Source: a virus
Direction: 5' to 3' (one strand)
DNA: 23,467 nt
IMG/VR virus record: IMGVR_UViG_3300004463_000518
Span: 1-23,467 of that record
The notes under the pieces were generated by a model that did not search any database, was not told the origin of the DNA, and worked only from the letters and a program-made list of their open reading frames with translations. Position numbers and translations under genes: made by a program. Numbering within the stretch: position 1 is the stretch's first letter; each line of letters begins with the position of its first letter. Of the stretch, positions 5,956-23,467 are shown piece by piece.

Positions 5956-6167
5956 GCTTCGCCGAGTTTCGCCAGTGGCAGGCGTACCGCGAGCGCCGCG
6001 GTTCGCTAAACGTCGGCATGCGCGTGGAGTGGGGCAGTGCGCAGTTGGCCGCTATGTATGCCAGCCGCAACAGCAAGCGCCCCGAGGGTTACACCCCGTA
6101 CAGCTTCGCCACGCACCACGACGAGCCGGAACTGAGCCTGGAACGGGCCATGGAGACATGGACCTGA
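5515..6167 (+). CDS. Tail assembly chaperone G-T, made by -1 frameshift
   Basis: A -1 shift at the heptamer GGGAAAG (5853-5859; zero-frame reading G GGA AAG) joins the first 115 G codons to 102 codons in the -1 frame, giving about 217 aa. The T part has EEGEAESVDEIWHEL and then a clear protein-like sequence with AKERLSFAEFRQWQAYRERRG and SAQLAAMYASRNSKRPE, ending at TGA 6165-6167. It has no ribosome site of its own, as expected for a frameshift-made extension. Lambda uses the same heptamer. The low ratio of G-T to G is needed for tail assembly in lambda. The coding of the T segment and the heptamer phase are both visible; the shift itself is inferred. Confidence 0.85.
5853..5859 (+). promoter_or_regulatory. 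Slippery heptamer for programmed -1 frameshift
   Basis: GGGAAAG lies in the correct phase (G GGA AAG) for a tandem -1 slip to GGG AAA, as in lambda G-T. The downstream -1 frame stays open to 6167 and encodes a T-like domain. No downstream pseudoknot was assessed. Confidence 0.85.
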
Positions 6168-6177
6168 TTGCTTCTAC

Positions 6178-6198
6178 AGCCCGCTGCGGCGGGCTTTT
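6178..6198 (+). terminator. Intrinsic terminator before the tape-measure gene
   Basis: AGCCCGC and GCGGGCT form a 7-bp stem with loop TGCG, followed by TTTT. It lies in the 51-bp gap between the G-T stop and the tape-measure start, the same kind of place as the other internal terminators. Confidence 0.7.
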
Positions 6199-6218
6199 AA
6201 TTGCCCAGAGGAAAGGAC

Positions 6219-8573
6219 ATGGCCAGCAAATCACTGGGCACGCTAACGCTTGATCTTATAGCCCGCGTTGGGGGCTTTGTTGCCGGCATGGATAAAGCAG
6301 AGCGAAGCTCTGCCAAATGGCGCAAGCAAGTCGAGCAGAGTGCTTCCGCTGCTGGCGCGGCGGTAGGCGCTGCGTCAGCCGTAGCCGTTGGTGCCCTGGC
6401 TGTATGGGTCAAAAGTAGCATCAGTAACGCTGCAGAGATCGAGAACCTTGCCAGGGTTGCAGGATCGTCGACCACTGAGTTTCAGAAGTTTGCAGCCGGC
6501 GCCCGCACGGTGGGCATCGAGAACGACAAGCTGTCGGACATCCTCAAAGATGTTAACGACAAGGTCGGCGAGTTTCTGGCCTCAGGCGGCGGCGAGCTAA
6601 AAGACTTTTTCGAGCAAGTAGCGCCCAAGGTCGGCGTGACGGCTGAACAGTTTCGCAATCTCTCAGGCCCCCAGGCGCTCGGGCTGTATGTCGACACCCT
6701 CGAAAAGGCAGGCGCCAATCAGCAGGAAATGACCTTCTTCATGGAGGCCATCGCTGATGACGCCACGCTGCTCGCGCCGCTGCTGCGCAACGGCGGGAAG
6801 GAAATGCGTGGGCTGGCTGAGGAAGCAGAGAACCTCGGGCTGATCCTCTCGGAAAAAACCATCGCTGGAGCCAAGCAGTTCCAAGATGACCTGGACCTTC
6901 TCGGGCGCGTCGCCGGCGGTGTCGGGCAGCAAATTGCGGCTGAGCTATTGCCCGAGCTGCTGAAGCTCACCAGTGAACTGCGCGATCCTGATACAGCAAG
7001 AGCTGCGGCGGACATGGCCAAGGCCGTCGTCGGATCGTTCTCGACAATCGTCACGGCTGCGCGCAACACGGTTCAGTTTATTCAGTGGGCGGCCGAGTCT
7101 GCGGCCGCATTCATGGGTGGTATCGCGGCGGATGACATCGTTCGGCTGAACGATGAAATCGAGCGGCTCGAAACGATGAAGGAATCCGGTGCGCTTGATC
7201 GCCTCGTATTCTTCGGCCGCGACGGCCTTGTTTCCTATTACAACGACAATGAGTTGGAGAGCGAGTTGGCCAAGCTCCGTGCTGCAGCCGAGGCTGCGAT
7301 GCGGGGCGGACCGCCGATTGAGTTTCCTGTCGAGCCAAAGCTCGACGGTGGCAAGCCGCCTTTAGGTCCAGGCCTAGGCATGGGCGCGGGTGGAGGCCAA
7401 TCAGAACAAGCTGAAAAGGCTGCTGCGGCACTTACAAAACAGGTCGAAGCCCTGCAGAAACAGGCCGACACCCTTGGCATGAGCAGCGAAGCGCTTGCCA
7501 TCTACAACCTAGAGCAGGCCAAGGCCAGCGATGGGCAGCTGGTCCAGGCTCGCGCTGCGCTTGAAACAATTTCAGCGTTCGAAAAACAGAAAGAACAGAC
7601 CGAAGCCTACGCTGAGTTGGTCGCCGGTTTACGCACTGAGGAAGAGCAACTAACCGACCAATTGCGCGAGCGCCTGGCCGTCCTCAAGGCCATGACCGAT
7701 ATCAGCGACAGCGAACGGTCGCAGATGGCCGAACGGATCTCCAAGGCCACGCTGAGCGAGGCCCCCGAGTTCGGCGGGCTCGATGCGAGCGTGGGCGGCG
7801 CGGCGGGTGAGCTGGTCAAGGTCGCCGAAGCTGAACAGGAGCTGGCCAAGTGGCGCGAAACCGAGCTGGCCAACCAGCAAGCGTTTCTCGATCAAAAGCT
7901 GATCAACGAAGAACAGCACGCTGCGCGCGTCGCTGAAATCACCGCCGAGAACAACGCCAAGCTGTCGAGCCTCGGCGATGCCTACAAGGTGGCCACGCTC
8001 GGCATGTTCGCCGACGTGACGGGTAACGCCGCGGACATGATGAAAGAAATGGCCGGCGAAGGGTCGGCCGCCTACAAAGTGCTGTTTCTGGCCAGCAAGG
8101 CCGCGGCCATCGCGCAAGCGGTGGTCAGCACCGAGGTGGCCGCCGCCAAGGCGCTGGAACTCGGGCCGATCATGGGCATCCCGGCCGCCAGCCTGATTCG
8201 CGGCCTCGGCTATGCCTCGGTGGGCATGATCACCGCCACCACCCTGGCGGGCATGGCCCACGATGGCATCGACAACGTGCCGCGCGAAGGCACCTGGCTG
8301 CTCGATCAGGGCGAACGGGTGGTCGACAAGCGCACCAACGGCGACCTGAAAGACTTTCTTGCCAACCAATCCGGCGCTACGGGCGGCGGCGGGGCGCCCC
8401 AGGTGCATATCACCATCAACAGCGACGGCACGTCGGACGTGTCCGCCCCCGCAGGCCTGGAGCAATTCGGTGCCGAGCTGGGCCGTTTCGTCGATGCGCG
8501 CTGGCAGCAGCTGACCGCCGCCAGCTTGAAGCCGGGCGGCATGCTCTATCGCAATCAGAACGGGAGGGGCTAA
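6219..8573 (+). CDS. Tail tape measure protein (lambda gpH-like)
   Basis: The 784-aa protein sets tail length and is ejected into the host during infection. ATG 6219 is preferred over the in-frame start at 6201 because AGAGGA precedes it and MASKSLGTLTLDLIARVGGF is the usual N-terminus. The protein is largely helical. It has an Ala/Gly-rich hydrophobic stretch near residues 45-70, long helical repeats with coiled-coil character around 400-560, an Ala-rich, hydrophobic region near 615-680 that could insert into membrane, and then GTWLLDQGERVVDKRT (about 690-706), a motif shared by many lambda-like tape measures. A predicted mature tail of roughly 100 nm or somewhat more follows from the usual ~0.15 nm per residue, an inference only. 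Confidence 0.93.
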   Translation: MASKSLGTLTLDLIARVGGFVAGMDKAERSSAKWRKQVEQSASAAGAAVGAASAVAVGALAVWVKSSISNAAEIENLARVAGSSTTEFQKFAAGARTVGIENDKLSDILKDVNDKVGEFLASGGGELKDFFEQVAPKVGVTAEQFRNLSGPQALGLYVDTLEKAGANQQEMTFFMEAIADDATLLAPLLRNGGKEMRGLAEEAENLGLILSEKTIAGAKQFQDDLDLLGRVAGGVGQQIAAELLPELLKLTSELRDPDTARAAADMAKAVVGSFSTIVTAARNTVQFIQWAAESAAAFMGGIAADDIVRLNDEIERLETMKESGALDRLVFFGRDGLVSYYNDNELESELAKLRAAAEAAMRGGPPIEFPVEPKLDGGKPPLGPGLGMGAGGGQSEQAEKAAAALTKQVEALQKQADTLGMSSEALAIYNLEQAKASDGQLVQARAALETISAFEKQKEQTEAYAELVAGLRTEEEQLTDQLRERLAVLKAMTDISDSERSQMAERISKATLSEAPEFGGLDASVGGAAGELVKVAEAEQELAKWRETELANQQAFLDQKLINEEQHAARVAEITAENNAKLSSLGDAYKVATLGMFADVTGNAADMMKEMAGEGSAAYKVLFLASKAAAIAQAVVSTEVAAAKALELGPIMGIPAASLIRGLGYASVGMITATTLAGMAHDGIDNVPREGTWLLDQGERVVDKRTNGDLKDFLANQSGATGGGGAPQVHITINSDGTSDVSAPAGLEQFGAELGRFVDARWQQLTAASLKPGGMLYRNQNGRG

Positions 8574-8576
8574 GCC

Positions 8577-8918
8577 GTGGCGCTAGAGACTTTCACTTGG
8601 TCGCCACGCGTGGGCGCCGTGGGCACCTTCGATGACCGCACCCGCACGTCACGCTTTGGCGATGGCTACGCCCAGCATGTGCGCGACGGCATAAACAGCC
8701 AGACGCAAGCCTGGCCCCTGCAGTTCACTGGCCGCGAATCCTATATCGCACCGATCCGCGACTTTCTGCGCCGCCACGGCAAGGCCAAGGCCTTTCTGTG
8801 GACGCCGCCGCTCGGCGAGCTGGGCCTGTACCGCGTGCCGGCCGAGTTCACCTTGGCCCCCGCGGGCGCTGGCATCTACACGCTGGCGGTTTCGTTCGAG
8901 ACAGCCTTTCACCCTTGA
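8577..8918 (+). CDS. Minor tail protein M (lambda gpM-like)
   Basis: The 113-aa protein matches the lambda gpM family, which helps form the tail tip at the distal end of the tape measure. It begins with FTWSPRVGAVGTFDDRTRTSRFGDGYAQ, whose 'RFGDGY' turn is the family signature, and continues with FLRRHGKAKAFLWTPPLGE and a C-terminal strand IYTLAVSFETAF. The start is GTG 8577, with GGGAGGGG just upstream inside the end of the tape-measure gene. In lambda, M is followed directly by L; here four other genes intervene. Confidence 0.9.
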   Translation: MALETFTWSPRVGAVGTFDDRTRTSRFGDGYAQHVRDGINSQTQAWPLQFTGRESYIAPIRDFLRRHGKAKAFLWTPPLGELGLYRVPAEFTLAPAGAGIYTLAVSFETAFHP

Positions 8919-8926
8919 GGTAACCC

Positions 8927-10027
8927 ATGGCACAGCAACTGATTAACCTCGGCGCCACCGGAACCGGCGCCGGGGGCGATAGTGCGCGCACCGCGTTTGA
9001 GAAGGCGGTGGCGAACTTCGCCGAACTGTATATCGCCGCGCTGCCCGGAACCACCGCGCAGAAGGCGGCGGCGCGGGCGCAGTTTGGTATCCCCACCCTG
9101 CAAACGGGGGCCGATGACCTTACGTCAGGTCGGCTAGCTCTGACGGACACTGTTCGCCGCCAACTGGCCGGAGGTTTCTATAGCATCTACTGCGACCGGC
9201 TGATTCTGCTGCACCCGCTTTACGTGTCGTCGCTGCTGCCGTATTCCATAGTTGACGGCAAAATTACCGCAACGCGAGGGGCGGCCACATCATTTTTGAA
9301 CCAGACATGCGTCGAGGTTGTGTCGTCATCTGCTTATAGCGCCCACACCACGTCGCTCTATGATCTGGGCGGGTCCCCGGCCGAGCCATGGCAAGCTGTG
9401 TCCTGTACGTATCAGGGCGTTAAGTACGCCGCCCTCATAGTGCCGTACCATGCATCCGCCTACGGTGCAGGAATTTTCTTCGAAGGCAGAGCAGTGTCAG
9501 TCGACTCGAACCAGCTGCTGTGCATCGAGTATTACAACCGCAACACAGCCGCGGTGCTGAACGCCGAGGTATACAACAGCATTGCCCCGCTGTCTGTGCA
9601 GAAGACCTTCCGGGTCGGGGGGGAGACGACCTATCACACCGGTAACGTCATCGGCACTGTTTCTCGGTCCGGCGCCGGCGCCCTGACAGGGGCAATCATC
9701 GAGCGCGGTAGCAATGCGAACGGGGAGTACGTGCGGTTTGCCGACGGGACACAGGAGTGCTGGAAATCAACGCATTCCAGCAGTGCGACTAGGTCGGCGT
9801 GGGGGAGTTCTTCCGGGCTTTACCAATCGGCAAACACGGCGTGGCAGTACCCCGCGTCGTTCAGTGAAACGCCGGTCGTTACTGGCATCAGCTACGACTC
9901 GGGGGCGGTAGGGCTGCTGTCGGCAACGAACGTCGGCACCACAAACGTAAACCTACGGGCGATTTCCCCGACTCCATCACCTACCAGCCAGATCCTATGC
10001 CCTGTTGCTAAAGGCCGCTGGTACTAA
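8927..10027 (+). CDS. Tail fibre / receptor-binding protein
   Basis: The 366-aa protein reads as a fibre with three parts. The N-terminal 35 residues (INLGATGTGAGGDSARTAFE and FAELY) look like the virion anchor of many prophage fibres. The middle (about 60-235) is unrelated to anything I recognise and is beta-rich. The C-terminal part carries the classic motifs YHTGNVIGTVS (about 236-246) and ANGEYVRFADGTQ (about 264-276), followed by a Ser/Thr-rich, aromatic tip that is likely to bind a host surface structure. ATG 8927 has GAGG upstream. Its position between M and L, rather than after J, is unusual for a lambda tail. The receptor cannot be inferred. Confidence 0.82.
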   Translation: MAQQLINLGATGTGAGGDSARTAFEKAVANFAELYIAALPGTTAQKAAARAQFGIPTLQTGADDLTSGRLALTDTVRRQLAGGFYSIYCDRLILLHPLYVSSLLPYSIVDGKITATRGAATSFLNQTCVEVVSSSAYSAHTTSLYDLGGSPAEPWQAVSCTYQGVKYAALIVPYHASAYGAGIFFEGRAVSVDSNQLLCIEYYNRNTAAVLNAEVYNSIAPLSVQKTFRVGGETTYHTGNVIGTVSRSGAGALTGAIIERGSNANGEYVRFADGTQECWKSTHSSSATRSAWGSSSGLYQSANTAWQYPASFSETPVVTGISYDSGAVGLLSATNVGTTNVNLRAISPTPSPTSQILCPVAKGRWY

Positions 10028-10039
10028 TCGGAGAAAGCC

Positions 10040-10384
10040 ATGCACATCACCCTATCCCCCGTCCGTTTAGACGAAACCATCACCGCTTCGCTGACCGGCG
10101 AAGTGCTGACCCTCAACGGCGTGCCCTTTGACTTTGGCCCGCTGCCCGAGGGTGCCACGCTGCCCGCCGAAGCCATCGCCTCGGACTGGATCACCGGCCC
10201 CGTGTCGCGCATTGACGGTGAGATGCGCCTGACCTTGCGCCTGCCGCATGGCCCGAACCCGTCGCAAGCGGTCGCGTTCCCTGAACCGATCCGCGTCACC
10301 CAGGACGGCCCGATAACGCTGCCGGCCGATCCCGTGCCGGAGCCGGAACCCCTGCCCGAACTCGACGAGGAACTGCCCGCATGA
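10040..10384 (+). CDS. Fibre-associated small protein, unknown function
   Basis: The 114-aa protein follows the fibre by 12 bp and has a good GGAGA ribosome site. It has a compact N-terminal part with alternating polar and hydrophobic residues (LTGEVLTLNGVPFDFGPLPE, about 19-38), a central RIDGEMRLTLRLPHGPNP segment, and an acidic, Pro-rich C-terminus (residues about 95-114). Short proteins immediately downstream of fibres often act as fibre-assembly chaperones. That role is suggested by position only. I do not recognise the family. Confidence 0.7.
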   Translation: MHITLSPVRLDETITASLTGEVLTLNGVPFDFGPLPEGATLPAEAIASDWITGPVSRIDGEMRLTLRLPHGPNPSQAVAFPEPIRVTQDGPITLPADPVPEPEPLPELDEELPA

Positions 10385-10701
10385 GCATCGACTTTTCCCA
10401 GATGATCACTGCCGAAGACAAGGCGCAGCAGTCCGCCCAGGCTGCCCGTGACGCCTGGAAAGCAGCGCGCGCCGAGGCCGTGCGCGGCATCGTGGTGGAG
10501 GTCGACGGCCTGCGCTTTGACGGCGACGAGACCAGCCAGACCCGCATGGCCCGCTCGGTGTCGGTCATGGACCCCGGCGAAACCATCCCCTGGGTGCTGA
10601 GCGACAACACGCCCGCCCTGGTCAGCCGTGACCAGCTGCGCGAAGCCCTGCGCCTGGCCGGCAAACGGCAAACCGAACTGTGGGTGGCTGCCGATGAATA
10701 A
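10381..10701 (+). CDS. DUF4376-like protein, possible fibre chaperone
   Basis: The 106-aa protein is coupled to the previous gene by an ATGA overlap. Residues 1-40 form a charged helix (ITAEDKAQQSAQAARDAW). The rest resembles DUF4376: IVVEVDGLRFDGDETSQTRM (about 39-58), then PWVLSDNTPALVSRDQLREALRLAG. In other prophages this domain occurs next to or fused to tail-fibre assembly proteins, so a chaperone role is plausible. The family assignment is from memory of the motif pattern and should be tested by a profile search. Confidence 0.68.
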   Translation: MSIDFSQMITAEDKAQQSAQAARDAWKAARAEAVRGIVVEVDGLRFDGDETSQTRMARSVSVMDPGETIPWVLSDNTPALVSRDQLREALRLAGKRQTELWVAADE

Positions 10702-11101
10702 GCTAGACGCCGAGGCCTACCAAGCCCGCTATGGCCGCCGGCCCTACTGGCTGTCACTGCTGATCGCCCTCGACCAGCTCGCCAACGCGCTGCTGTGGGG
10801 CTACGTCGACGAAACCCTGTCGAGCCGTGCCTACCGTAGCGCCAGGCTGCGCACGCCCGCGAAACGCCGCTGGCGGGCGGCGGAGTGGCTGATCAATCGG
10901 CTGTTCTGGCGCGACCGCCTGGGCGAGTTGCGCCATTGCCAGCTCGCGTACCTGGGCGAGCTGGCCCGCGAACACTCGCCGCCACCCGTCACGCCACCCC
11001 CACAAACCCCGCCAAGTGCGGGGTTTGTCATTGAAGGGGAGGGCTGGCAGCTCGATGCGCGCGGCGGATTCCGTTTCAACCGACCCGACAACGGGGATTG
11101 A
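10694..11101 (+). CDS. Conserved phage protein of unknown function (135 aa)
   Basis: The gene overlaps the previous one by 8 bp (ATG 10694). The N-terminal 90 residues look conserved and helical: LIALDQLANALLWGYVDETL then SSRAYRSARLR, and later a LRHCQLAYLGELARE stretch with a lone His-Cys pair (residues about 80-81). The C-terminal part is a Pro-rich linker followed by a GEGWQLDARGGFRFNR segment. The DNA coding the linker contains a perfect 11-bp hairpin, as if a former terminator had been absorbed into the reading frame. Function is unknown; similar small proteins occur near tail genes in Pseudomonas prophages, from recollection only. It ends three bases before gpL. Confidence 0.72.
   Translation: MNKLDAEAYQARYGRRPYWLSLLIALDQLANALLWGYVDETLSSRAYRSARLRTPAKRRWRAAEWLINRLFWRDRLGELRHCQLAYLGELAREHSPPPVTPPPQTPPSAGFVIEGEGWQLDARGGFRFNRPDNGD
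11002..11028 (+). repeat. Terminator-like hairpin inside a coding region
   Basis: ACAAACCCCGC and GCGGGGTTTGT form a perfect 11-bp inverted repeat with loop CAAGT, inside the Pro-rich C-terminal part of the 135-aa gene. It has the look of an intrinsic terminator stem, but only a short T-tract (GTTTG) is built into the stem and no long T run follows. Confidence 0.8.
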
Positions 11102-11104
11102 CCC

Positions 11105-11854
11105 ATGGGCATAAACGCCGACGTGCAGCTGCTGGAACCCGGCAGCGAAATCATGCTGCTCGAAGTCGATTGCACGGCCTTCGGGGGCGACGTGGCGCGG
11201 TTCCATGGCCACAACGTCGCGCATACCCCGGCCGAGCTGGCCGCCGCGGCCGACGCCCCCGAGGCGCTGCCGGCCAAGTCGATCTGGTGGCAGGGGCAGG
11301 AATACCGCGCCTGGCCGGTCAAGGTCGACGGGCTGGAGGTAACCGGCGACGGCGGCGCGCCCGAACCGAGCCTGAGCGTGGGCAATATCGACAGCTCCAT
11401 CACCGCGCTGTGCCTGGCTTTCGATGACCTGGCCCAGGCGAAGGTCGCCATTCGATACACCTTCGCGCACTACCTGGACGCTGCGAACTTCGAGGGTGGC
11501 AACCCGGCGGCCGACCCGACCCAGGAGCGGGTCGAAACGTGGTTTATCGACCAGAAAACCCGCGAAGACGGCGAGGTGGTGCAGTTCACCCTCAACTCGC
11601 CCGGCGACGTGCAGGGCCTGCAGATCCCCGCGCGGCAGATCCACGGGCTGTGCCATTGGGCCATGTGTGGCGAGTACCGCGGCGCCGATTGCGGCTATGC
11701 CGGCGGGCCGGTGGCCACGCTGGACGGCACCCCAACCGACGACCCCGCGCAGGATCGCTGCGGCGGCCTGCTGAGCGACTGCAAGGCCCGTTTCGGCGCC
11801 AACAACCCGCTGAGCCATGGCGGCTTTCCCGGTGCAGCCCTCTTGAGGCGATAA
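11105..11854 (+). CDS. Minor tail protein L (lambda gpL-like), Fe-S type
   Basis: The 249-aa protein matches lambda gpL, a tail-tip component acting between the tape measure and J. Residues 1-175 are the usual beta-rich part. The C-terminal part is Cys-rich, with Cys183, 188, 196, 219 and 226; lambda gpL binds a [4Fe-4S] cluster through four such cysteines, and the spacing 196-219-226 resembles the lambda pattern as I recall it. An extra stretch at residues 41-60 is Ala/Pro-rich. The gene is directly followed by K. Confidence 0.9.
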   Translation: MGINADVQLLEPGSEIMLLEVDCTAFGGDVARFHGHNVAHTPAELAAAADAPEALPAKSIWWQGQEYRAWPVKVDGLEVTGDGGAPEPSLSVGNIDSSITALCLAFDDLAQAKVAIRYTFAHYLDAANFEGGNPAADPTQERVETWFIDQKTREDGEVVQFTLNSPGDVQGLQIPARQIHGLCHWAMCGEYRGADCGYAGGPVATLDGTPTDDPAQDRCGGLLSDCKARFGANNPLSHGGFPGAALLRR

Positions 11855-11856
11855 GC

Positions 11857-12567
11857 ATGCGAAAACACATCCTCGACGCGGTGCGCAAACACGCCGCCGC
11901 CGAATACCCGCGCGAGTGCTGCGGCCTGGTCGTGCAGATCGGCCGCCGGCACCAGTACCTGCCCTGCCGCAACCTGGCCGCCGAAGGCCGCGACCGCTTC
12001 GAGCTGGCCCCCGAGGACTACGCCGCAGCCGAGGACCTGGGCACCGTCATCGGTGTGGTGCATTCACACCCCGACGCCACCAGCCGCGCGAGCGACACCG
12101 ACGTCGCGCTGTGCAATGCCGGCGACGTGCCCTGGTACATCCTCAGTTGGCCGGAAGGCGACTTGAACGTCCTGCTGCCAGCAGACGGCGTGCCGCCGCT
12201 GGTCGGCCGCCCCTTCGTGCATGGCACAGATTACGACTGCTACGGGCTGATCCGCGGCTTTTACCAGCTCGAATATGGCATCGCCTTGCCCGACTACCCG
12301 CGCGCGGATGAATGGTGGAACGGCGAGGCCGACCACTATCGCGACCTGTTCGCCGATGCCGGTTTCGAGCCGGCCACCGGCCCGCTGCAGCGCGGCGACG
12401 TGGTGCTGATGCAGGTTCAGGCGCCAAAGACCAACCACGGCGGCATCTACCTCGGCGACGGCCAGCTGCTGCACCACCTGTATGGGCGGCTGAGCGGCAC
12501 CGTGGCCTATGGCGGCTACTGGCTCGACCGCACCACGCTGGTGGTGCGCTACAAGGGGGCAGCATGA
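11857..12567 (+). CDS. Tail assembly protein K: JAMM plus NlpC/P60 peptidase
   Basis: The 236-aa protein has two enzymatic domains in the lambda gpK order. The N-terminal JAMM/MPN metalloprotease carries Glu20, the exact H-x-H-x7-S-x2-D motif (His69, His71, Ser79, Asp82), so zinc binding and catalysis appear intact. The C-terminal NlpC/P60 domain carries Cys128 in DCYGLIRGF, His194 in NHGGIYLGD, and His206/207. NlpC/P60 domains cleave peptidoglycan stem peptides, so the protein may help penetrate the wall at infection as well as take part in tip assembly. ATG 11857 is chosen over an in-frame upstream start because it is two bases past the L stop and gives the normal N-terminus. Confidence 0.93.
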   Translation: MRKHILDAVRKHAAAEYPRECCGLVVQIGRRHQYLPCRNLAAEGRDRFELAPEDYAAAEDLGTVIGVVHSHPDATSRASDTDVALCNAGDVPWYILSWPEGDLNVLLPADGVPPLVGRPFVHGTDYDCYGLIRGFYQLEYGIALPDYPRADEWWNGEADHYRDLFADAGFEPATGPLQRGDVVLMQVQAPKTNHGGIYLGDGQLLHHLYGRLSGTVAYGGYWLDRTTLVVRYKGAA

Positions 12568-13127
12568 ATCAACTGCGGACGGTGCGGCTGTATGGCGTGC
12601 TGGGCGCGCGCTTCGGGCGCGTTTTCAAGCTGGCCGTGGAGAGCCCCGCCGAGGCCATTCGCGCGCTATGCACCCAGCTGCCGGGGCTGGAACAGTACCT
12701 GGCCACCAGTAAGCAACGCGGGCTGGTTTATGCGGTGTTCCAAGGCCGCCAGCAGGTCGGCGAACAGCAGCTGCAGTTCGGCGGCAGCGGCGACATTCGC
12801 ATCGCCCCGGTGGTGGTCGGCAGCAAAAAGCAGGGCCTTTTTCAGACCATCCTCGGCGCCGTGCTGGTGGTGGTCGGCGTCTACTTTGGCCAACCCTGGC
12901 TGGTGGCCATGGGCGCGGGCATGGCCTTCGGCGGTGTCATGCAGATGCTGTCACCGCAGGCCAAGGGCCTGAGCGGGCGGGAGGATGCCGCCAATACGCC
13001 GAGCTATGCGTTCGGCGGCCCGGTCAACACGGTGGCCATGGGTAACCCGGTCGGCCTGCTGTACGGCAAGCGCCGGATCGGCGGCGCCATCATTTCCGGC
13101 GGCATCTACGCCGAAGACCAAATGTAA
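12564..13127 (+). CDS. Tail assembly protein I (lambda gpI-like)
   Basis: The 187-aa protein matches lambda gpI, which is needed for tail-tip assembly. It begins with a short ubiquitin-like or beta-grasp-like region (VRLYGVLGARFGRVFKL), then has a Gly-rich hydrophobic stretch (about 94-128, with GAVLVVVGVYFG) and ends in the family motif GGPVNTVAMGNPVGLLYGKR and GAIISGGIY. The hydrophobic segment could be a membrane or membrane-like helix; its role is unknown. The start overlaps the K stop in ATGA, and the in-frame upstream extension is a GC-rich artefact. A terminator separates it from J. Confidence 0.9.
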   Translation: MNQLRTVRLYGVLGARFGRVFKLAVESPAEAIRALCTQLPGLEQYLATSKQRGLVYAVFQGRQQVGEQQLQFGGSGDIRIAPVVVGSKKQGLFQTILGAVLVVVGVYFGQPWLVAMGAGMAFGGVMQMLSPQAKGLSGREDAANTPSYAFGGPVNTVAMGNPVGLLYGKRRIGGAIISGGIYAEDQM

Positions 13128-13146
13128 CCACCCCCAACACGCCCCG

Positions 13147-13174
13147 AGCCCGGCACCTGCGCCGGGCTTTTTTT
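13147..13174 (+). terminator. Intrinsic terminator between I and J
   Basis: AGCCCGGC and GCCGGGCT form an 8-bp stem with the six-base loop ACCTGC, followed directly by a run of seven T. This is a strong rho-independent terminator in the plus direction, 18 bp before the J start. Confidence 0.88.
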
Positions 13175-13192
13175 CGTCCAAAGGAAAACCCC

Positions 13193-16100
13193 ATGGCACC
13201 GCAGATCAGAGGCCGCAAGGGCGGCGAAGAAACCCCGCGCACCCCGGTTCAGGCCCCCGACAGCGTGCGGTCGGTAGCCTATGCCAAAGTGCTGCTGGCC
13301 CTGGGCGAAGGCGAGTTCGCAGGCGGCGCGGGCGGCACGTTGGACGGCCGCGATATCTATCTGGACGGCACGCCCGTACTGGCGGCCGATGGGACCGAGA
13401 ATTTCCCCGGCGTGAAATGGGAGTTTCGCCCCGGCACGCCGCACCAGACCCATATCGCCGGCCTGCCGGCGGTGGAGAATGAAACCGGCATCGGCGTCGA
13501 GCTGCGCAGCGCCACGCCCTGGGTGCGCGCGGTCACCAACCCGCAACTGTCGGCGGTGCGCGTGCGCCTGTCGTGGCCCTCGCTGCAGCAGCAGTTGAGC
13601 AACGGCGACGTGGTGGGCTATCGCATCGACTACGCCATCGACCTGGCCAGCGATGGCGGCAGCTTTGCCCAGGTGGCCGCCTACACGCTCAACGATAAGA
13701 CGACCAGCAAATACGAGCGCTCGCACCGTATCGACCTGCCGGCCGGCGCCGCCAGCTGGCAGGTGCGTGTGCGCCGCCTGACGATCAACAAAGACGACAA
13801 CCTGATCGCCGACACCATGCGCGTGGAGGCCATCACCGAAATCATCGACGCGAAACTGCGCTACCCCAATACCGCGCTGCTGTTCGTGCAGTTCGATGCG
13901 TCGCAGTTCCAATCCATCCCCCAGGTGTCGGTCGAAACGCGCGGGCGCGTCATCCGCGTGCCGAGCAATTACACCCCCGAGGCCCGCGCCTATACCGGCG
14001 TGTGGGACGGCACCTTTAAATGGGCCTGGACGGATAACCCGGCGTGGATCTGGTACGACCTCGTACTGTCGCCGCGCTTCGGCCTCGGCCGCCGCATCAC
14101 CCAGGCGCAGGTCGACAAGTGGGAGCTGTACCGCATCGCCCAGCATTGCGACCAGCTTGTGCCCGACGGGAAGGGCGGGCAGGAGCCGCGTTATACCTGC
14201 AACGTCTATTTCCAGTCGAAGGCCGACGCCTGGGTCGCGCTGCGCGACCTGACCGCGATATTCCGCGGCATGAGCTATTGGGCGAACTCGCAGATGACGG
14301 CCATCGCCGACATGCCGCGCGACGTTGACTACCAGTTCACCCGCGCCAACGTCATCGACGGCAAATTCACCTATACCGGCACCTCGCAGAAAACCCGGCA
14401 CAGCATGGCGCTGGTGAGCTTCGACGACCCCGATAACGGCTATCAGAGCGACATCGAGCCGGTGGCCGACAACGAACTGGTGCGCCGCTACGGCGTCAAC
14501 CAGCTGGATATCTCGGCCATCGGCTGCACCCGCCGCAGCCAGGCCGCGCGTGCCGGAAAGTGGGCGCTGCTGACCAACAGCCGCGACCGTGGCGTCTCGT
14601 TCCGCGTGGGGCTCGACGGCGCCATTCCGCTGCCGGGGCACATCATCGCCGTGGCCGACGAGCTGCTGGTCGGTCGCCCGCTGGGTGGGCGTATCAGCCT
14701 TGTGTCGGGGCGGCAGATCACGCTCGACCGCGACACCCAGGTAAAAGCCGGCGACCGGCTGGTGGTGAACCTGCCCAGCGGCGTGGCCGAAGGGCGCACG
14801 GTGCAGAGCGTCACCGGCCGCGCCGTTACCGTCACGACCGAATACAGCCAGGTGCCGCAGGCGCAAGCGGTGTGGACGCTCGACGCGGCCGACCTGACGA
14901 CGCAGCTCTACCGTGTACTGGGCATCAAGCGGCCCGAGTCGGGCGAGTTTGAAATCAACGCGGTGCAGCACGACCCGAACAAATATGCCGCCGTGGATAC
15001 CGGCGCGCGGCTGGAGAACCGCCCGGTTTCCGTGGTGCCGCTCGGGGTGCAGGCGCCCCCTGCCGGTGTGACGGTAACGAGCTTTACCCATGTTGTGCAG
15101 GGCATCGCCGTGACCACCCTGCGCGCCGCCTGGCAGGCGGCCACGGGGGCGGTGGCCTATGAGGCCGAATGGCGCAAGGATGACGGCCAGTGGATTGCCG
15201 TCCCGCGCGCCTCGGGGCTTGGGTTCGAGGTGCCGGGCATCTATGCCGGGCGCTATCTGGTGCGCGTGCGCGCGGTTAACCCGCTGGGCGTGGCCTCGAT
15301 TGCGGCGTACAGCGCCGAAACCACCCTGGCCGGCAAGGTCGGTGCGCCGCCTGCGCTGGCCTCGCTGACCACTACGCCGGAGCTGTTCGGCATCGGCCTG
15401 GCCTGGGCATTTCCTGCCACGGGCGCGGCCGATACCCAGCGCACCGAAATCGAGTACAACACCACGGCCAGCGCAACCGGCGCCATGCACCTGGGCGACT
15501 ACCCGTACCCGGCCAGCCGGCACAGCGTCACCAACCTGGCGGCGGGGGCAACGCTGCATTTCCGTGGCCGTCTGGTGGACCGTACCGGCAACGTCGGGCC
15601 GTGGTCGGGCTGGATCATGGGTCAAGCCAGTTCGGACGCCGGCAAGCTCCTCAACGCCCTGGCCGGGCAGATCGCAGAGACCCAGTTGGCCCAAGCGCTG
15701 CAGACGCGAATCGGCCTGATCGACGGTCCAAGCACCACGGCCGGCACGGTGGCTGCGCGCATCAAGACCGAAACCGATGCCCGCGCCGCGGCGCTGACCA
15801 AAGAGGCCCAGGACCGGGCGGCGGCGATCCTCAAGGAAGCCCAAGACCGCGGCGCTGCCGTGACGGCCGAGCAAACCGCGCGCAGCAATGCCGACACGGC
15901 GTTAGGCCAGCGCATCGACACGGTAACCGCGGCGACCAATAGCAACGCCTCGGCCATTCAGACAGAAGTGACCGCGCGCACCAACGCCGACACGGCATTG
16001 GGCCAGCGCATCGACACGGTAACGTCCACGGCCGCAGGCAATACGGCGGCGATCACGGCCGAGCAAACCGCGCGCGCCAATGCCGACACCGCGCTGGGTC

Positions 16101-18779: not shown

Positions 18780-19331
18780 ATGCAGATAACCGAGCAGCAG
18801 CTGCTGCACGTGATGCCCAACGCCCGCCGAAACGCGGGCGTTTTTGTTTCTGCGATCAACGCGATGAGCCATCGCTGGCAGATCAACACGCCCAAGCGCA
18901 TGGCTGCGTTCCTGGCACAGATCGGCCACGAGTCCGGGCAGTTGCACTACGTGCGCGAGCTGGGCGGCGACAACTACTTGGCCAAGTACGATACCGGCAG
19001 GCTAGCGGAGCGCCTCGGCAACACGCCCGAACCGGATGGCGACGGTCAGCGGTACCGCGGACGGGGCCTGATTCAGATCACCGGCAGGTTCAACTACCTC
19101 AAGTGCAGCGTCGGCCTGTTCGGCGATGACCGGCTCCTTAAAGAGCCCGAGCTGCTCGAGCAGCCCGAGTGGGCGGCAGAGTCGGCCGGCTGGTTCTGGT
19201 TCGTGAAAGGGCTGAATGTGCTCGCCGACGCGAACGACCTTGTTGCCATCACCCGCATCATCAACGGTGGTACAAACGGCCTGGCCGAGCGCCGTGAACT
19301 GTGGGGCAGGGCGCGTGAGGTGATTGTATGA
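18780..19331 (+). CDS. Endolysin, glycoside hydrolase family 19
   Basis: The 183-aa protein is a chitinase-like GH19 lysozyme that cleaves peptidoglycan at the end of the lytic cycle. Family motifs are visible: AAFLAQIGHESGQLHYVREL with Glu51 (the likely catalytic acid) and Glu60 (likely base), then YRGRGLIQITGRFNY (92-106), WAAESAGWFW (131-140), and RIINGGTNG (159-167). There is no signal peptide, so release depends on a holin or similar. ATG 18780 is used because GGAG is six bases upstream; an in-frame start 30 bp earlier sits inside the terminator. It overlaps the spanin gene in ATGA. Confidence 0.93.
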   Translation: MQITEQQLLHVMPNARRNAGVFVSAINAMSHRWQINTPKRMAAFLAQIGHESGQLHYVRELGGDNYLAKYDTGRLAERLGNTPEPDGDGQRYRGRGLIQITGRFNYLKCSVGLFGDDRLLKEPELLEQPEWAAESAGWFWFVKGLNVLADANDLVAITRIINGGTNGLAERRELWGRAREVIV

Positions 19332-19873
19332 GCCTGACGGATCTGATCCCACCGCAATACAAGCTGCTCGCCGCCGGGTTGGTGGTTGCGCTGTTGATGG
19401 CGGTGGCCGCTACCGGCACCTGGCAGTGGCAGGCCAACAGCTACGGCAAGCGGCTGGCCGAGCAGGCCGCGGAGCATCAAAGCTTTGTCCGCACCGTGGC
19501 GGAAGCCAACGCCACGGTCATCCGGCAGCAGCAGGAAGCACGCCTCGGCCTCGAGGCGCAACTGGCCGCCATTGACGAAACCTCAACTTGGAAGCTGACC
19601 CATGCCAACGCCGAAAACGATCGCCTTGAGCGTCTCTATGTTGCTGCTGACGATGAGCGTAAGCGGCTGCGCATCGAGATCAAGCTCGCCCGCGCTGACC
19701 TGGTCGTGTCCGAAACCGCCGGTGCCGGCAGCTTGGGCGATGCAGCCAGCGTCGAACTCAGTGCAGCAGCTGGACAGGCTGTTTGGGATATCCGCCGAGC
19801 CATGATCGAGGACCGGGCGAAGCTCGAGTACTTACAAGGCTGGGCTAGAACCGTGTCTGGCCGAGCGCCATAG
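19328..19873 (+). CDS. Inner-membrane spanin, Rz-like
   Basis: The 181-aa protein has one N-terminal transmembrane helix (residues about 12-32, KLLAAGLVVALLMAVAATG) and then a long periplasmic helical region with strong coiled-coil character (about 35-125). This is the layout of Rz, which pairs with the outer-membrane lipoprotein Rz1 to fuse the two membranes in the last step of lysis. It is longer than lambda Rz (153 aa), mostly at the C-terminus. It is coupled to the endolysin by ATGA and contains an embedded +1 frame lipoprotein gene. Confidence 0.88.
   Translation: MSLTDLIPPQYKLLAAGLVVALLMAVAATGTWQWQANSYGKRLAEQAAEHQSFVRTVAEANATVIRQQQEARLGLEAQLAAIDETSTWKLTHANAENDRLERLYVAADDERKRLRIEIKLARADLVVSETAGAGSLGDAASVELSAAAGQAVWDIRRAMIEDRAKLEYLQGWARTVSGRAP
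19602..19805 (+). CDS. Outer-membrane spanin lipoprotein, Rz1-like, nested in Rz
   Basis: This 67-aa ORF lies entirely within Rz in the +1 frame, as in lambda. It begins MPTPKTIALSVSMLLLTMSV and carries a lipobox V-S-G-C with the acylated Cys at residue 23. The mature part would be 45 aa, with Ser-rich linker and a Pro-rich stretch (CPKPPVPAA), typical of Rz1. The start has no strong ribosome site, common for nested Rz1 genes. The combination of position, lipobox and proline content makes the call good. The overlap with the coiled-coil part of Rz constrains both proteins. Confidence 0.85.
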   Translation: MPTPKTIALSVSMLLLTMSVSGCASRSSSPALTWSCPKPPVPAAWAMQPASNSVQQLDRLFGISAEP

Positions 19874-19880
19874 CTGATGA

Positions 19881-19899
19881 GTGCCACGAAAGGTGGCAC
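19881..19899. repeat. Short inverted repeat upstream of the cargo genes
   Basis: GTGCCAC and GTGGCAC (7 bp, loop GAAAG) lie eight bases after the Rz stop and 38 bp before the next gene. There is no T-tract on either strand, so it may be an operator or an mRNA hairpin rather than a terminator. Confidence 0.45.
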
Positions 19900-19937: not shown

Positions 19938-20801
19938 ATGAATAGCGCAGCGGTGTTAAAGAAAAGTCTGGATTTAATATTGTTTGGGGTGGTTATTGCC
20001 GTAGGTACGCCTATTGCCATTGGCTACTTTTCTTATCAATGGATTGCTGATGCCTTTAGCGATAGCAGTAGTATATCTTTTGCTTCCGAATGTAGAGGCC
20101 GAATCATAGGCGCCGATAATTCAATGTCTCGGTTTGTCTTCTACGGTGAGAACAAATCCGGTGCCTCGACGCTTCAAGAGCTGTGCGTTACGGATCTCAA
20201 TGAAGGTGCGGTCGAGTTTTACGATCATCCGGAAGGATATAAAAATAAGCGGGCACTAGGGAGGCACCTAATAGTCAATTCCCGCTTTAGTGTCTTGCCG
20301 CCTGAGTTGGCGAAGCCATTTAAGTCGGCAGACCTGCCAAGGTTCCAATTCAACTCGCAGGGCTTGTTGCTTGTGAGAGAAGAATATGGTGATCGGATAG
20401 AGGCTGCGGCCTTTTCGTATGAAGAGCTTGGGCTTGCAGGCTATAGTTTTTCGGACTGGCCTGCGGACTCGTTTGCTGGGTTTTCATCAGGTCTTCTCGT
20501 CAATTATGAGAAAATCTATAACGATGATGACGAGTATAACGTTTCTGTAACCAATGGCTCGGAACAACTCGCGTCATTCAATCTGCGACAAACTGAGGCG
20601 TGGGGGCAGGGCCTTGTGGTTCGTAACCATGTTTTGATTCCTATGGATGACGAGGTAGCTATCTACGATTTTTCCGGACGCCAAACGGGTGACGGCTTCT
20701 GTTGTGCGGAGCGAATTAGGTTGCTGCCGGGACATCCTGATTGGATATTGGCAGAGAGCGACGAGTTGCGGCTGTGGAAGGTTAGCGAACTTGGTCTGTA
20801 A
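19938..20801 (+). CDS. Membrane-anchored protein, unknown function (moron candidate)
   Basis: The 287-aa protein has one clear N-terminal membrane segment (residues about 11-32, LDLILFGVVIAVGTPIAIGY) preceded by Lys8 and Lys9, so the C-terminal domain is predicted to be periplasmic. That domain is beta-rich, with scattered Trp/Tyr and four cysteines (52, 83, 255, 256), and ends in a WD-like LRLWKV. A propeller-like fold is possible but unproven. The DNA is visibly poorer in GC than the phage genes around it, which suggests separate acquisition. ATG 19938 is chosen because the upstream frame contains no better start. It ends five bases before the nuclease-like gene, so the two are likely co-transcribed. 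No family is recognised. Confidence 0.75.
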   Translation: MNSAAVLKKSLDLILFGVVIAVGTPIAIGYFSYQWIADAFSDSSSISFASECRGRIIGADNSMSRFVFYGENKSGASTLQELCVTDLNEGAVEFYDHPEGYKNKRALGRHLIVNSRFSVLPPELAKPFKSADLPRFQFNSQGLLLVREEYGDRIEAAAFSYEELGLAGYSFSDWPADSFAGFSSGLLVNYEKIYNDDDEYNVSVTNGSEQLASFNLRQTEAWGQGLVVRNHVLIPMDDEVAIYDFSGRQTGDGFCCAERIRLLPGHPDWILAESDELRLWKVSELGL

Positions 20802-20806
20802 ATCGA

Positions 20807-21370
20807 ATGAGTAAGATCATACACAGCGTAATTGCCGATGCCGCCGCTACGCTCGATAAAAGTCTGAACTATTTTTACCCAGCTTGGGGTAAGAATGGAT
20901 TTAACGAGCGAAACCTTACGTATCAGATGGCAAAGGCGTTTGAAAGGCGCAAGGCCTCGTGCGCGTTTATGGAAATACCGTTTTTTGACCAAGAGAGAAA
21001 AGTCTACGGCAAACATGTAGATGCTTTAATGTTCGACCCTTATCTGGCTCTTTTTATCGAATCAAAACGGCTTTATAGCGCAGAAAAGCTACAGGAACTT
21101 AAGCTAGACTACGAGCGGATGACTAGCTCCAATCTACAGCCCGTATTGGATGATCTTTGTTTGCGCCTGTCTGGCAGAAGGCAAGCCTATCGGGTAATCC
21201 TGGCTGAAACTTGGAGTGCTAGAGTTGCGCATTGGTGGGTCGGTGAGAAAAGCTCGCTAGACTGGGATCGTTCTTGGTTGCCAAGCGCTACGAGCATTGT
21301 TCCTGTACGTACTTGGAGCGATTCAGGATCTACGCTTTTCTGGCTATATGCTTTTGCTCCGTTGGGCTAA
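20807..21370 (+). CDS. PD-(D/E)XK nuclease-like protein (moron candidate)
   Basis: The 187-aa protein shows a credible PD-(D/E)XK arrangement: Glu35 in a first helix (GFNERNLTYQMAKAF), Asp72 in a short strand (HVDALMFDP), and Glu85-x-Lys87 in the next strand (ALFIESKRL), 12 residues after Asp72. This is the core of many restriction-type and repair nucleases. The C-terminal 80 residues are Trp-rich and may bind DNA or a partner. It has no signal peptide and is probably cytoplasmic. It follows the membrane protein by 5 bp and shares its lower GC. A defence or superinfection-control role is inferred; no activity can be proven from sequence. Confidence 0.72.
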   Translation: MSKIIHSVIADAAATLDKSLNYFYPAWGKNGFNERNLTYQMAKAFERRKASCAFMEIPFFDQERKVYGKHVDALMFDPYLALFIESKRLYSAEKLQELKLDYERMTSSNLQPVLDDLCLRLSGRRQAYRVILAETWSARVAHWWVGEKSSLDWDRSWLPSATSIVPVRTWSDSGSTLFWLYAFAPLG

Positions 21371-21556: not shown

Positions 21557-22297
21557 CTAGCACCGCCAGCGAAACCGAGCTGGGGATTCCGTAACAAAGC
21601 CTCGCCCGTTGCATTCAATGCAGTCTTCCCGCCTGCTGAAGACATCCTCGCAGGCGGGGCAGGGCATGAACACCGAAATGCTGGCTCGCGTCGTTAGGCT
21701 GTCGTGCCGTTGTATGTCTCCGCGCTCGGCGGTGTGCTGAATCGCATCGAGTAGGGCCCGGTAGATATCGGGGTCATCGATGGCATGGGTTTCCACGTTG
21801 ACAACGATCCGCGACGTTTCGACCAGCTCGTAAACCTCGCCGTCGGCCGTAATGTATTCCTTGCCCTCTACGCGGCCCACCACCTCAAAGTACTTGCTGA
21901 TTGCCTCCAACCCATTGCCCGTGCGTTCTATCCGAGCGGTATACATGTTTGGCGGCAAATCGCGCGTGGAGGCGCCCAGGTACAGGCGGCAGCCTCGGGC
22001 TTCGCCAACTCGCGCCCCGTCCTGCAGCAGTTTGTAATTACCGGGCCCTATGTAGTACCGGCGAAGTACAAGCTGCTCTTCGATCTCATGCTCGTACGCG
22101 GCATTCGCCATTTCATCCATGTCGAACCGCTCAAGACAATCGATGACGCCGCGGCGCTGTAGATCCTCACTCAGGTTCAACAGGTTGTCGCGGTAGATCC
22201 TCGGCATGTCCCGTAACAGCTTGGTGTCGTCGAGCATGACCCGCCATCGCTCCAGCGAACTGTCATTTCGCACCGGTTGCGAGATATCCCGTCCCAT
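21557..22297 (-). CDS. Unknown protein with C-terminal zinc-ribbon motif, SOS-controlled
   Basis: The start ATG at 22297 (minus strand) has AAGG seven bases upstream; a GTG six bases earlier is an alternative. The 246-aa protein has a charged helical N-terminal part (residues 1-80, with DDTKLLRDMPRIYRDNLLNL), a mixed central domain (80-205), and a C-terminal CPAC (213-216) and CIEC (226-229) pair, the second followed by NGRG as in DnaJ CxxCxGxG zinc-binding motifs. Zinc or nucleic-acid binding is plausible. A near-perfect LexA box lies 15 bp upstream, so DNA damage should induce the gene. I do not recognise the family. Whether it is phage or host is unclear. Confidence 0.78.
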   Translation of the reverse strand: MGRDISQPVRNDSSLERWRVMLDDTKLLRDMPRIYRDNLLNLSEDLQRRGVIDCLERFDMDEMANAAYEHEIEEQLVLRRYYIGPGNYKLLQDGARVGEARGCRLYLGASTRDLPPNMYTARIERTGNGLEAISKYFEVVGRVEGKEYITADGEVYELVETSRIVVNVETHAIDDPDIYRALLDAIQHTAERGDIQRHDSLTTRASISVFMPCPACEDVFSRREDCIECNGRGFVTESPARFRWRC

Positions 22298-22308
22298 CGT
22301 CACGCCTT

Positions 22309-22332
22309 GATACTGTATTCATATACAGTATC
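22309..22332 (-). promoter_or_regulatory. LexA (SOS) box
   Basis: CTGTATTCATATACAG at 22313-22328 fits the gamma-proteobacterial LexA consensus CTG-N10-CAG with the usual AT-rich centre. The symmetry extends to a 24-bp palindrome with 10-bp arms and a 4-base centre. It lies just upstream of the minus-strand 246-aa gene, where it would overlap the promoter. Confidence 0.88.
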
Positions 22333-22372: not shown

Positions 22373-23071
22373 CTACAGCGCAGGGTCACTGATTCTTTCG
22401 ATGAGATGCGCGCCATCGTTGCGCACGTTGCCAACGGCGGCAGGCACGGGATACCAGGTGAACTCTTCGATACACAGCCCGTGCTCCAGCGCGATCTCCT
22501 CGGCTTCTTCAGGCGATAGCTCCGGGTCTAACCAGTGGGCTGCGCACTCGGCTGAGAGCACGAGCGGGCGCCGGTCGTGAATATCGACCATTCCGGCGTC
22601 GCTGGCCGAGGTGATGATCACCATGCCGTCCCCATCTCTCGGCGGTAGCCCACCGCGTGAGAACTGCCCCAGCGCTGCAAAGAACATCGGGTCGCCGCCA
22701 TTCAACGTGATGTAGTAGGGCTGCTTGATCTTCGGGTTGGCTTCGTCCTTCTTCCACTCGAACCACCCATCCGCGGGCACGATTGCGCGGCCGGCCTTCC
22801 AGATGTCGCGGAAAAACTTGCTCGTCGCGGCTGTCTCCACCCTGGCATTGATCGCCGGCGGTCTCTTCCCCTGCGCCCACCACGGGGCGTATCCCCAACG
22901 CACCCCGTCCATTCGCAACCCATCGTCGTCTTGGTGCAGCAGCTGGACCATCGACTGCGGTGGCAAGTTATACCGCCCGAGCGGCTCAGAGGGCGGCGCG
23001 CTGATCGTCGTCAGGTTAAGTTGGTTCAGGTAGTCGACTGCGTGTCGGTACTGTGTGATTCGTCCGCACAT
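22373..23071 (-). CDS. SRAP-domain protein (YedK/HMCES family)
   Basis: This 232-aa protein matches the SOS response-associated peptidase family. Its members use the N-terminal Cys to form a covalent crosslink with abasic sites in single-stranded DNA, shielding them. The key residues are present: Cys2 exposed after Met removal (MCGRITQ), Asn75 in INARVET, Glu105 in GWFEW, and His165 in IHDRRPL. The start at 23071 (minus strand) is required to expose Cys2 and has GGAGG upstream; the in-frame extension of 15 residues is rejected. The length is normal (E. coli YedK 222). It is transcribed away from trpG toward the SOS-linked gene. It may be host or prophage cargo. Confidence 0.92.
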   Translation of the reverse strand: MCGRITQYRHAVDYLNQLNLTTISAPPSEPLGRYNLPPQSMVQLLHQDDDGLRMDGVRWGYAPWWAQGKRPPAINARVETAATSKFFRDIWKAGRAIVPADGWFEWKKDEANPKIKQPYYITLNGGDPMFFAALGQFSRGGLPPRDGDGMVIITSASDAGMVDIHDRRPLVLSAECAAHWLDPELSPEEAEEIALEHGLCIEEFTWYPVPAAVGNVRNDGAHLIERISDPAL

Positions 23072-23217
23072 AGAATTTCCTCCGCGGCCCAATTCACAAT
23101 CAGAGGCTGCCTGCACCCTGTTCGTTCGGCTTGCTGAGGTTTTAGGCGCGCACGGTATAGTGATACTGTACGGGTAACCGACGTACCCTCTGCGTCGGCC
23201 TGTAAACGAGATCTCCT

Positions 23218-23412: not shown

Positions 23413-23467
23413 ATGTTGCTGATGCTGGATAACTACGATTCCTTTACCTACAACGTCGTGCAGTACC
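23413..23467 (+). CDS. trpG: Anthranilate synthase component II, TrpG (5' end only)
   Basis: Only 18 codons are present before the window ends. They read MLLMLDNYDSFTYNVVQY, the almost invariant N-terminus of TrpG/PabA glutamine amidotransferases (DNYDSFTYN). TrpG supplies ammonia from glutamine to TrpE for anthranilate synthesis in tryptophan biosynthesis. In Pseudomonas, trpG is followed by trpD and trpC and is separated from trpE, so trpG rather than pabA is preferred, but PabA cannot be excluded from so short a fragment. It marks the host side of the prophage. Confidence 0.87.
   Translation, partial: MLLMLDNYDSFTYNVVQY

Follow-up and report, generated by a model that had tools for sequence, protein, structure and literature searches.

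Among the stand-alone PD-(D/E)XK defence proteins, Shedu SduA and GapS1 are encoded by a single nuclease gene in mobile contexts, and Shedu, like the type IV enzymes, relies on its own target discrimination. Anti-phage genes are also carried by prophages, examples being Tab of JBD26, which blocks tail assembly, Tha, a HEPN protein triggered by tail proteins, and BstA, which acts at phage replication sites (PMC10884400, PMC11087260). Vibrio integron cassettes are reported to form another reservoir of small anti-phage genes, a review giving 16 of 179 cassettes for V. cholerae and, for V. parahaemolyticus, 9 of the 57 that were tested, the comparison with the present locus being made at the level of cassettes as a class (PMC12409362).

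Here, we analyzed a viral DNA stretch of 23,467 nt (IMGVR_UViG_3300004463_000518), hereafter called the window, in which two neighboring genes, A and B, had been proposed from the sequence to form a system of a membrane-anchored protein and a nuclease. The observation as such was accurate and the nuclease call was right, while the two-gene system was unsupported by co-occurrence. Instead, B is probably an undescribed stand-alone nuclease directed against phages or plasmids, and A is perhaps a separate or lineage-specific envelope companion, such as a superinfection-exclusion factor.

The cargo slot of the prophage

The window represents the right-hand part of a lambda-like siphoprophage. PHROG matches were obtained for the portal (phrog_12, 3.5e-87), prohead protease, major head protein, tape measure, minor tail proteins and the host-specificity protein J, followed by a GH19 endolysin and then by Rz and Rz1 according to Pfam. 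Identity to P. aeruginosa phages is 82% in the capsid region, and part of the lysis region is similar to Stutzerimonas phages. The i-spanin gene Rz (19328–19873, plus strand; Pfam Phage_lysis, 1.2e-11), with Rz1 nested in it (19602–19805; Pfam Rz1, 8e-10), forms the left border of the cargo slot. Gene A (19938–20801, plus strand; 287 aa) and gene B (20807–21370, plus strand; 187 aa) follow as real ORFs on the same strand as the lysis genes and 5 bp apart, as had been read from the sequence. The ATG of A at 19938 comes with a credible ribosome site, and the GTG at 19881, which would lengthen the protein, is not required as a start. On the far side of the slot and outside the cargo lies a phage gene of 248 aa (21557–22303, minus strand; phrog_19595, 2e-45), and the right border is a SRAP/YedK-type gene (22373–23116, minus strand; Pfam SRAP, 6.7e-48).

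The two genes are foreign in composition. The GC content is 48.1% in A and 47.0% in B (GC3 49% and 47%), compared with 59–68% (GC3 72–86%) in J, GH19, Rz, the 248-aa gene and SRAP, which places their GC3 some 25–35 points under that of the neighbors and agrees with the lower GC content noted before. In the Stutzerimonas phages PG1 and pAN, Rz and SRAP (63–79% identical) are present with neither A nor B, and a single small hypothetical gene separates them; A and B are therefore an optional insertion. With this site lacking both genes in related phages and with the differing base composition (GC 47–48%), A and B are best read as a moron insert of host or MGE origin, placed between Rz/Rz1 and SRAP in a Pseudomonas siphoprophage, and their description as cargo held.

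The viral contig L001 (IMGVR_UViG_3300011871_000045) carries Rz, A, B and SRAP in the order of the window, with amino acid identities of 63%, 57%, 71% and 58%, respectively. There, B starts either with a TTG 5 bp past A or with a GTG having a 1-base overlap with the stop codon of A. The fractions of codons differing between both copies at positions 1/2/3 are 0.35/0.19/0.61 for A and 0.26/0.13/0.51 for B, and by this sequence comparison each gene is under purifying selection relative to its other copy. Since order and slot are repeated in this diverged second prophage, the A-B pair exceeds chance. A perfect 7-bp hairpin between Rz and A (GTGCCAC-GAAAG-GTGGCAC; 19881–19899, plus strand; folding z −2.3) has no T run and is thus not an obvious terminator; the corresponding gap of 20 bp in L001 did not show it.

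A consensus scan detected no promoter for A and B and no terminators beyond chance, and an Rfam search of the cargo region gave no match. Because A and B follow Rz in its own direction and the scan gave them no promoter, they may be expressed late. A gene for defence is expected to be active during lysogeny; late expression would fit a lysogen-protecting gene poorly, and expression timing is the weak point of a defence reading. A B homologue of a different clade on the viral contig L016 is also located close to an Rz/lysozyme-like pair, the pair being identified by eye.

Beyond the lysis genes, SRAP is retained in the window, L001, PG1 and pAN (58–79% identity); this retention of a DNA-damage protein suggests a common phage use. 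A perfect LexA-type box (CTGTAT-N4-ATACAG) is present at 22313–22328 of the window and at 6212–6227 of L001; in both prophages it lies a short way upstream of the minus-strand gene that adjoins SRAP (the phrog_19595 gene in the window). The number of such matches expected by chance, even allowing two mismatches, is ~0.2 for the window and ~0.1 for L001. With this box upstream in both prophages, the gene is probably SOS-controlled. The last 55 bases of the window (23413–23467), MLLMLDNYDSFTYNVVQY, are what we take to be the start of host trpG/pabA, and the right end of the window is thus apparently host DNA; the integration would be near trpE-trpG, a known site of pyocin and prophage clusters.

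Predicted structures of B and A

The window B protein yielded nothing significant in Pfam, NCBIfam, PHROG, PADLOC or PDB sequences, and no solved structure covering the B family was found in a search of the family against PDB sequences. Neither A nor B matched any PADLOC-DB 2.0.0 model at E up to 10, in agreement with the earlier reading, in which neither was recognized as a known defence family. An AlphaFold2 model of B obtained with 14 homologues as input reached a pLDDT of 91.7 and a pTM of 0.88; thereby, the modeling suggested for checking the original prediction returned a nuclease fold. The model has the alpha-beta-beta-beta-alpha-beta core of the PD-(D/E)XK superfamily. Helix 2 comprises residues 34–45 with Glu34 at its start, Asp72 is located in strand 66–76, and Glu85-x-Lys87 in strand 80–88; both the order of the elements and the placement of the catalytic residues are canonical for PD-(D/E)XK proteins (acid in helix 1, Asp72 in beta-2, Glu85-x-Lys87 in beta-3). 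In the alignment, Tyr24, Pro25, Gly31, Glu34, Glu56, Asp72, Glu85, Lys87 and Arg88 are invariant in all 27 B homologues. The PD-(D/E)XK core initially proposed was thus recovered with its fold, Asp72 and Glu85-x-Lys87, while the helix acid is Glu34 and not Glu35; Glu56 is as invariant as Glu34 across the 27 homologues.

Nearly all leading structural matches of B are nucleases with a restriction-endonuclease fold. Top ranks in Foldseek against the PDB were R2 retrotransposon endonuclease domains, NucC, cap-snatching endonucleases, RecE and Hjc, those in VIA-align were CidB/CinB, EcoRV, XisH, BamHI, McrC and Card1, and a BFVD search gave phage PD-(D/E)XK proteins. All of these matches are distant (Z up to 6.9, best PDB E 3e-3) and therefore support the superfamily and not a family; the lack of a closer structural match was not read as proof of a new fold. 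Judged from the model, it is close to certain that B adopts a PD-(D/E)XK nuclease fold, and there is good reason to expect that it is catalytically competent.

We infer the topology and function of A. The protein has one N-terminal hydrophobic segment (peak residues 13–31, Kyte-Doolittle 2.24), as had been predicted, and since Lys8-Lys9 precede this single helix, the C-terminal domain is expected to be periplasmic and probably is. Four Cys residues are common to both copies. The beta-rich domain also ascribed to A was seen solely in a poor AlphaFold model (pLDDT 54 overall, 70–87 in the last 100 residues), in which the part beyond the helix is beta-rich. The likeness to beta-propeller proteins (BamB, YncE, WD40) lies in the matches of this low-confidence model, which are mostly propellers such as BamB and YncE; the difference lies in the pLDDT of 54, TM-scores of ~0.2 and the lack of a sequence match, A having none in Pfam, PHROG, PADLOC or PDB sequences. 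Because a fold cannot be named from so weak a model, the propeller match was taken as a hint only, and a beta-propeller-like domain is assigned to A with low confidence.

Distribution of B and its relation to A

Relatives of B occur sporadically in four bacterial phyla, the hosts being Pseudomonas, Aeromonas, Photobacterium and other Vibrionaceae, an alphaproteobacterial MAG, Bacteroidales, Fibrobacter and a Clostridiales MAG; B is also present on one Vibrio plasmid and on three viral contigs besides the window. It was detected in 7 of 399 Pseudomonas, 3 of 37 Aeromonas and 6 of 247 Vibrionaceae genomes, and in 1 of 369 Gammaproteobacteria, the sole carrier there being the centre genome of that search. 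The phage collection gave no tblastn match to A or B, the plasmids yielded one distant B and no A, and two further viral scans with clade-specific alignments revealed no new carriers. In the tree, the B proteins of the window and L001 fall into a Pseudomonas clade (7 rows, 100/100), apart from a second Pseudomonas/prophage clade. In the Vibrionaceae loci L002, L048 and L049, B is a single-gene integron cassette directly flanked by attC-type repeats (TAACAAA...GCGTTA). Elsewhere, it is often a lone insertion, as in P. viridiflava (L004), where it has an AraC-type regulator on one side and the gene of a 687-aa enzyme on the other. Going by these sequence searches, the B family is undescribed and horizontally scattered, with no Pfam, NCBIfam, PHROG or PADLOC model.

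Two loci deviate from this picture in their gene structure. In L032, a Pseudomonas relative of L004, an extra gene for 582 aa (6147–7895) is located 60 bp upstream of the B homologue and is absent from the same site in L004; its product has no Pfam match and a weak Tmn match (5e-5). In the Vibrionaceae locus L051, the B homologue is split in two frames (7964–8541) and apparently decayed.

This distribution bears on a role of B in DNA repair, recombination or genome processing in the service of phage or host, not in defence. Such a role would be in line with some of the structural matches (Hjc resolvases, RecE, RecB-like exonucleases), with a weak uracil-DNA glycosylase match adjoining the B copy of L010, and with SRAP, a DNA-damage protein, next door. 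However, the occurrence of B is very sporadic, its sites are single-gene cassettes and slots outside replication modules, and PG1 and pAN do without B although they have the same SRAP, so that we consider this role unlikely.

The original prediction had taken A and B as a sensing/nuclease pair and had named conserved co-occurrence as a check. A is present in 2 of the 27 B loci, namely the window and L001, whose A was found among viral contigs via a two-row alignment of A; an HMM of the two A copies detected none in the other 25 loci. The pair was thus seen in one other prophage only and not across unrelated hosts, and B is a self-contained single-gene cassette in the Vibrionaceae integrons. 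Also, a recurring partner gene for B was sought in the 27 loci, and none was found. A was not found in 399 Pseudomonas genomes or in 398 genomes taken at the family level (Pseudomonadaceae), which is a weak negative because these samples hold no positive control. B is genetically independent of A.

A two-component defence module restricted to the prophage lineage of the window, in which A would be the envelope sensor and B the cytoplasmic nuclease, would nevertheless agree with the close spacing in both copies (5 bp or a 1-nt overlap), the kept order, the purifying selection on both genes, and the fact that A (57%) and B (71%) have drifted yet stayed together. Its single other example stands against the 25 B loci without A, among them five other members of the Pseudomonas clade of B (100/100). 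A, in turn, was never found without B. Such a module is unlikely in our view.

A nuclease that inhibits growth in an abortive or toxin-like manner, its control being absent or encoded at an unlinked site, would suit a small accessory gene of integrons and of a T6SS-like surrounding (L031, near a PAAR gene identified by eye); the 27 loci contain no conserved small partner gene, however, and the family is stable alone, which makes this reading very unlikely. That A and B are a functionally irrelevant relic or decaying cargo, as the one split Vibrionaceae copy might suggest, is highly improbable for a window B copy with strong third-position bias and a fully conserved active site.

Proposed role of B and comparison with known systems

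Homologues of B are sometimes found beside known defence systems. Within ~6 kb of B, Gabija GajA (1.3e-285) was detected in L030, Lamassu LmuB (1.2e-73) and LmuA (3e-54) in the prophage L015, BstA (2.4e-121) in L050, and Tin (5e-69) in L048. For 104 neighbors of B from 15 loci, 98 PADLOC models were matched at 1e-10 among the matches listed, including GajA, Lamassu, BstA and Tin as well as Uzume and type IV restriction models, versus 22 models, chiefly helicases and RtcR-type regulators, among the matches listed for 104 control proteins from 10 distant regions of the same genomes; these counts are inflated by many GajA models and come from a small sample and a small control, and the enrichment over the control is suggestive. 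Because defence genes abound in integron arrays and prophages in general, the neighborhood is weak evidence for a defence role of B, and the majority of the copies from Pseudomonas and Aeromonas have ordinary genes around them.

Some of these surroundings showed further details. In L015, the Lamassu-type operon adjoining B (8777–13267) consists of LmuB, a 142-aa gene, a protease-like LmuA-related protein and a second LmuA-type protein. A membrane-anchored NERD-type gene is located directly upstream of B in two Aeromonas species (L005, 6987–7859; L007, 6940–7833), and an integron array of the Vibrionaceae contains a NERD look-alike at a distance of 3.5 kb from B (L048, 12116–12907).

With the structural model and the distribution taken together, a stand-alone nuclease damaging foreign DNA is the best reading of B overall, one for which the arguments for and against are about evenly balanced, and we are equally divided over a role of B in defence. 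For B, we infer nuclease activity, DNA as the target, a trigger and this defence role. The prophage would carry B as a single-gene defence nuclease that protects its lysogen. Since B has no recurring partner, it would need its own discrimination of the target. Foreign DNA, on entry or during replication, would be recognized by some feature and cut via a metal ion held by Glu34, Asp72, Glu85 and Lys87. A, as an inner-membrane-anchored periplasmic protein, would have joined B once, in the phage lineage of the window, and would act separately at the envelope in the manner of superinfection exclusion, or would only adjust the role of B. A bolder version, according to which B founds a scattered single-gene anti-phage nuclease family and is here wired to A as a periplasmic propeller-type sensor, the two forming an alarm across the membrane by which contact of a phage with the envelope sets off DNA cutting, is a long shot.

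If B is a defence nuclease, it would be a compact one-gene system of ~190 aa, detected by none of the libraries searched, with copies on prophages, in integrons of Vibrionaceae and on chromosomes from four phyla. A B profile, once added to such libraries, would annotate a set of "hypothetical" cassettes, and the prophage and integron copies would offer a ready comparison of the same small nuclease in different mobile elements.

Compared with described proteins, B shares the fold and the E...D...ExK active-site pattern with the PD-(D/E)XK superfamily and differs in having no family-level match, all matches being distant. For NERD (PF08378), the likeness consists of weak HMM similarity in 3 of 15 B-family members (best E 0.001) and of the separate NERD gene adjoining the Aeromonas B copies; in contrast, the window B has no Pfam match to it at E up to 1, the gathering score is not reached, and B is one short domain that lacks the Zn ribbon of the neighboring NERD protein. 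An assignment of B to GapS1 (NF047931) was rejected, as the curated cut-off was not reached, with one family member at a chance-level E of 0.056 and the window protein giving no match. B resembles Shedu SduA and GapS1 in being a lone nuclease-fold gene in mobile contexts, and differs from them in that no PADLOC model matches it at E up to 10. With Tab of JBD26, BstA and Tha, A and B have in common that they are accessory genes on a prophage, whereas B differs from these three as a predicted PD-(D/E)XK protein.
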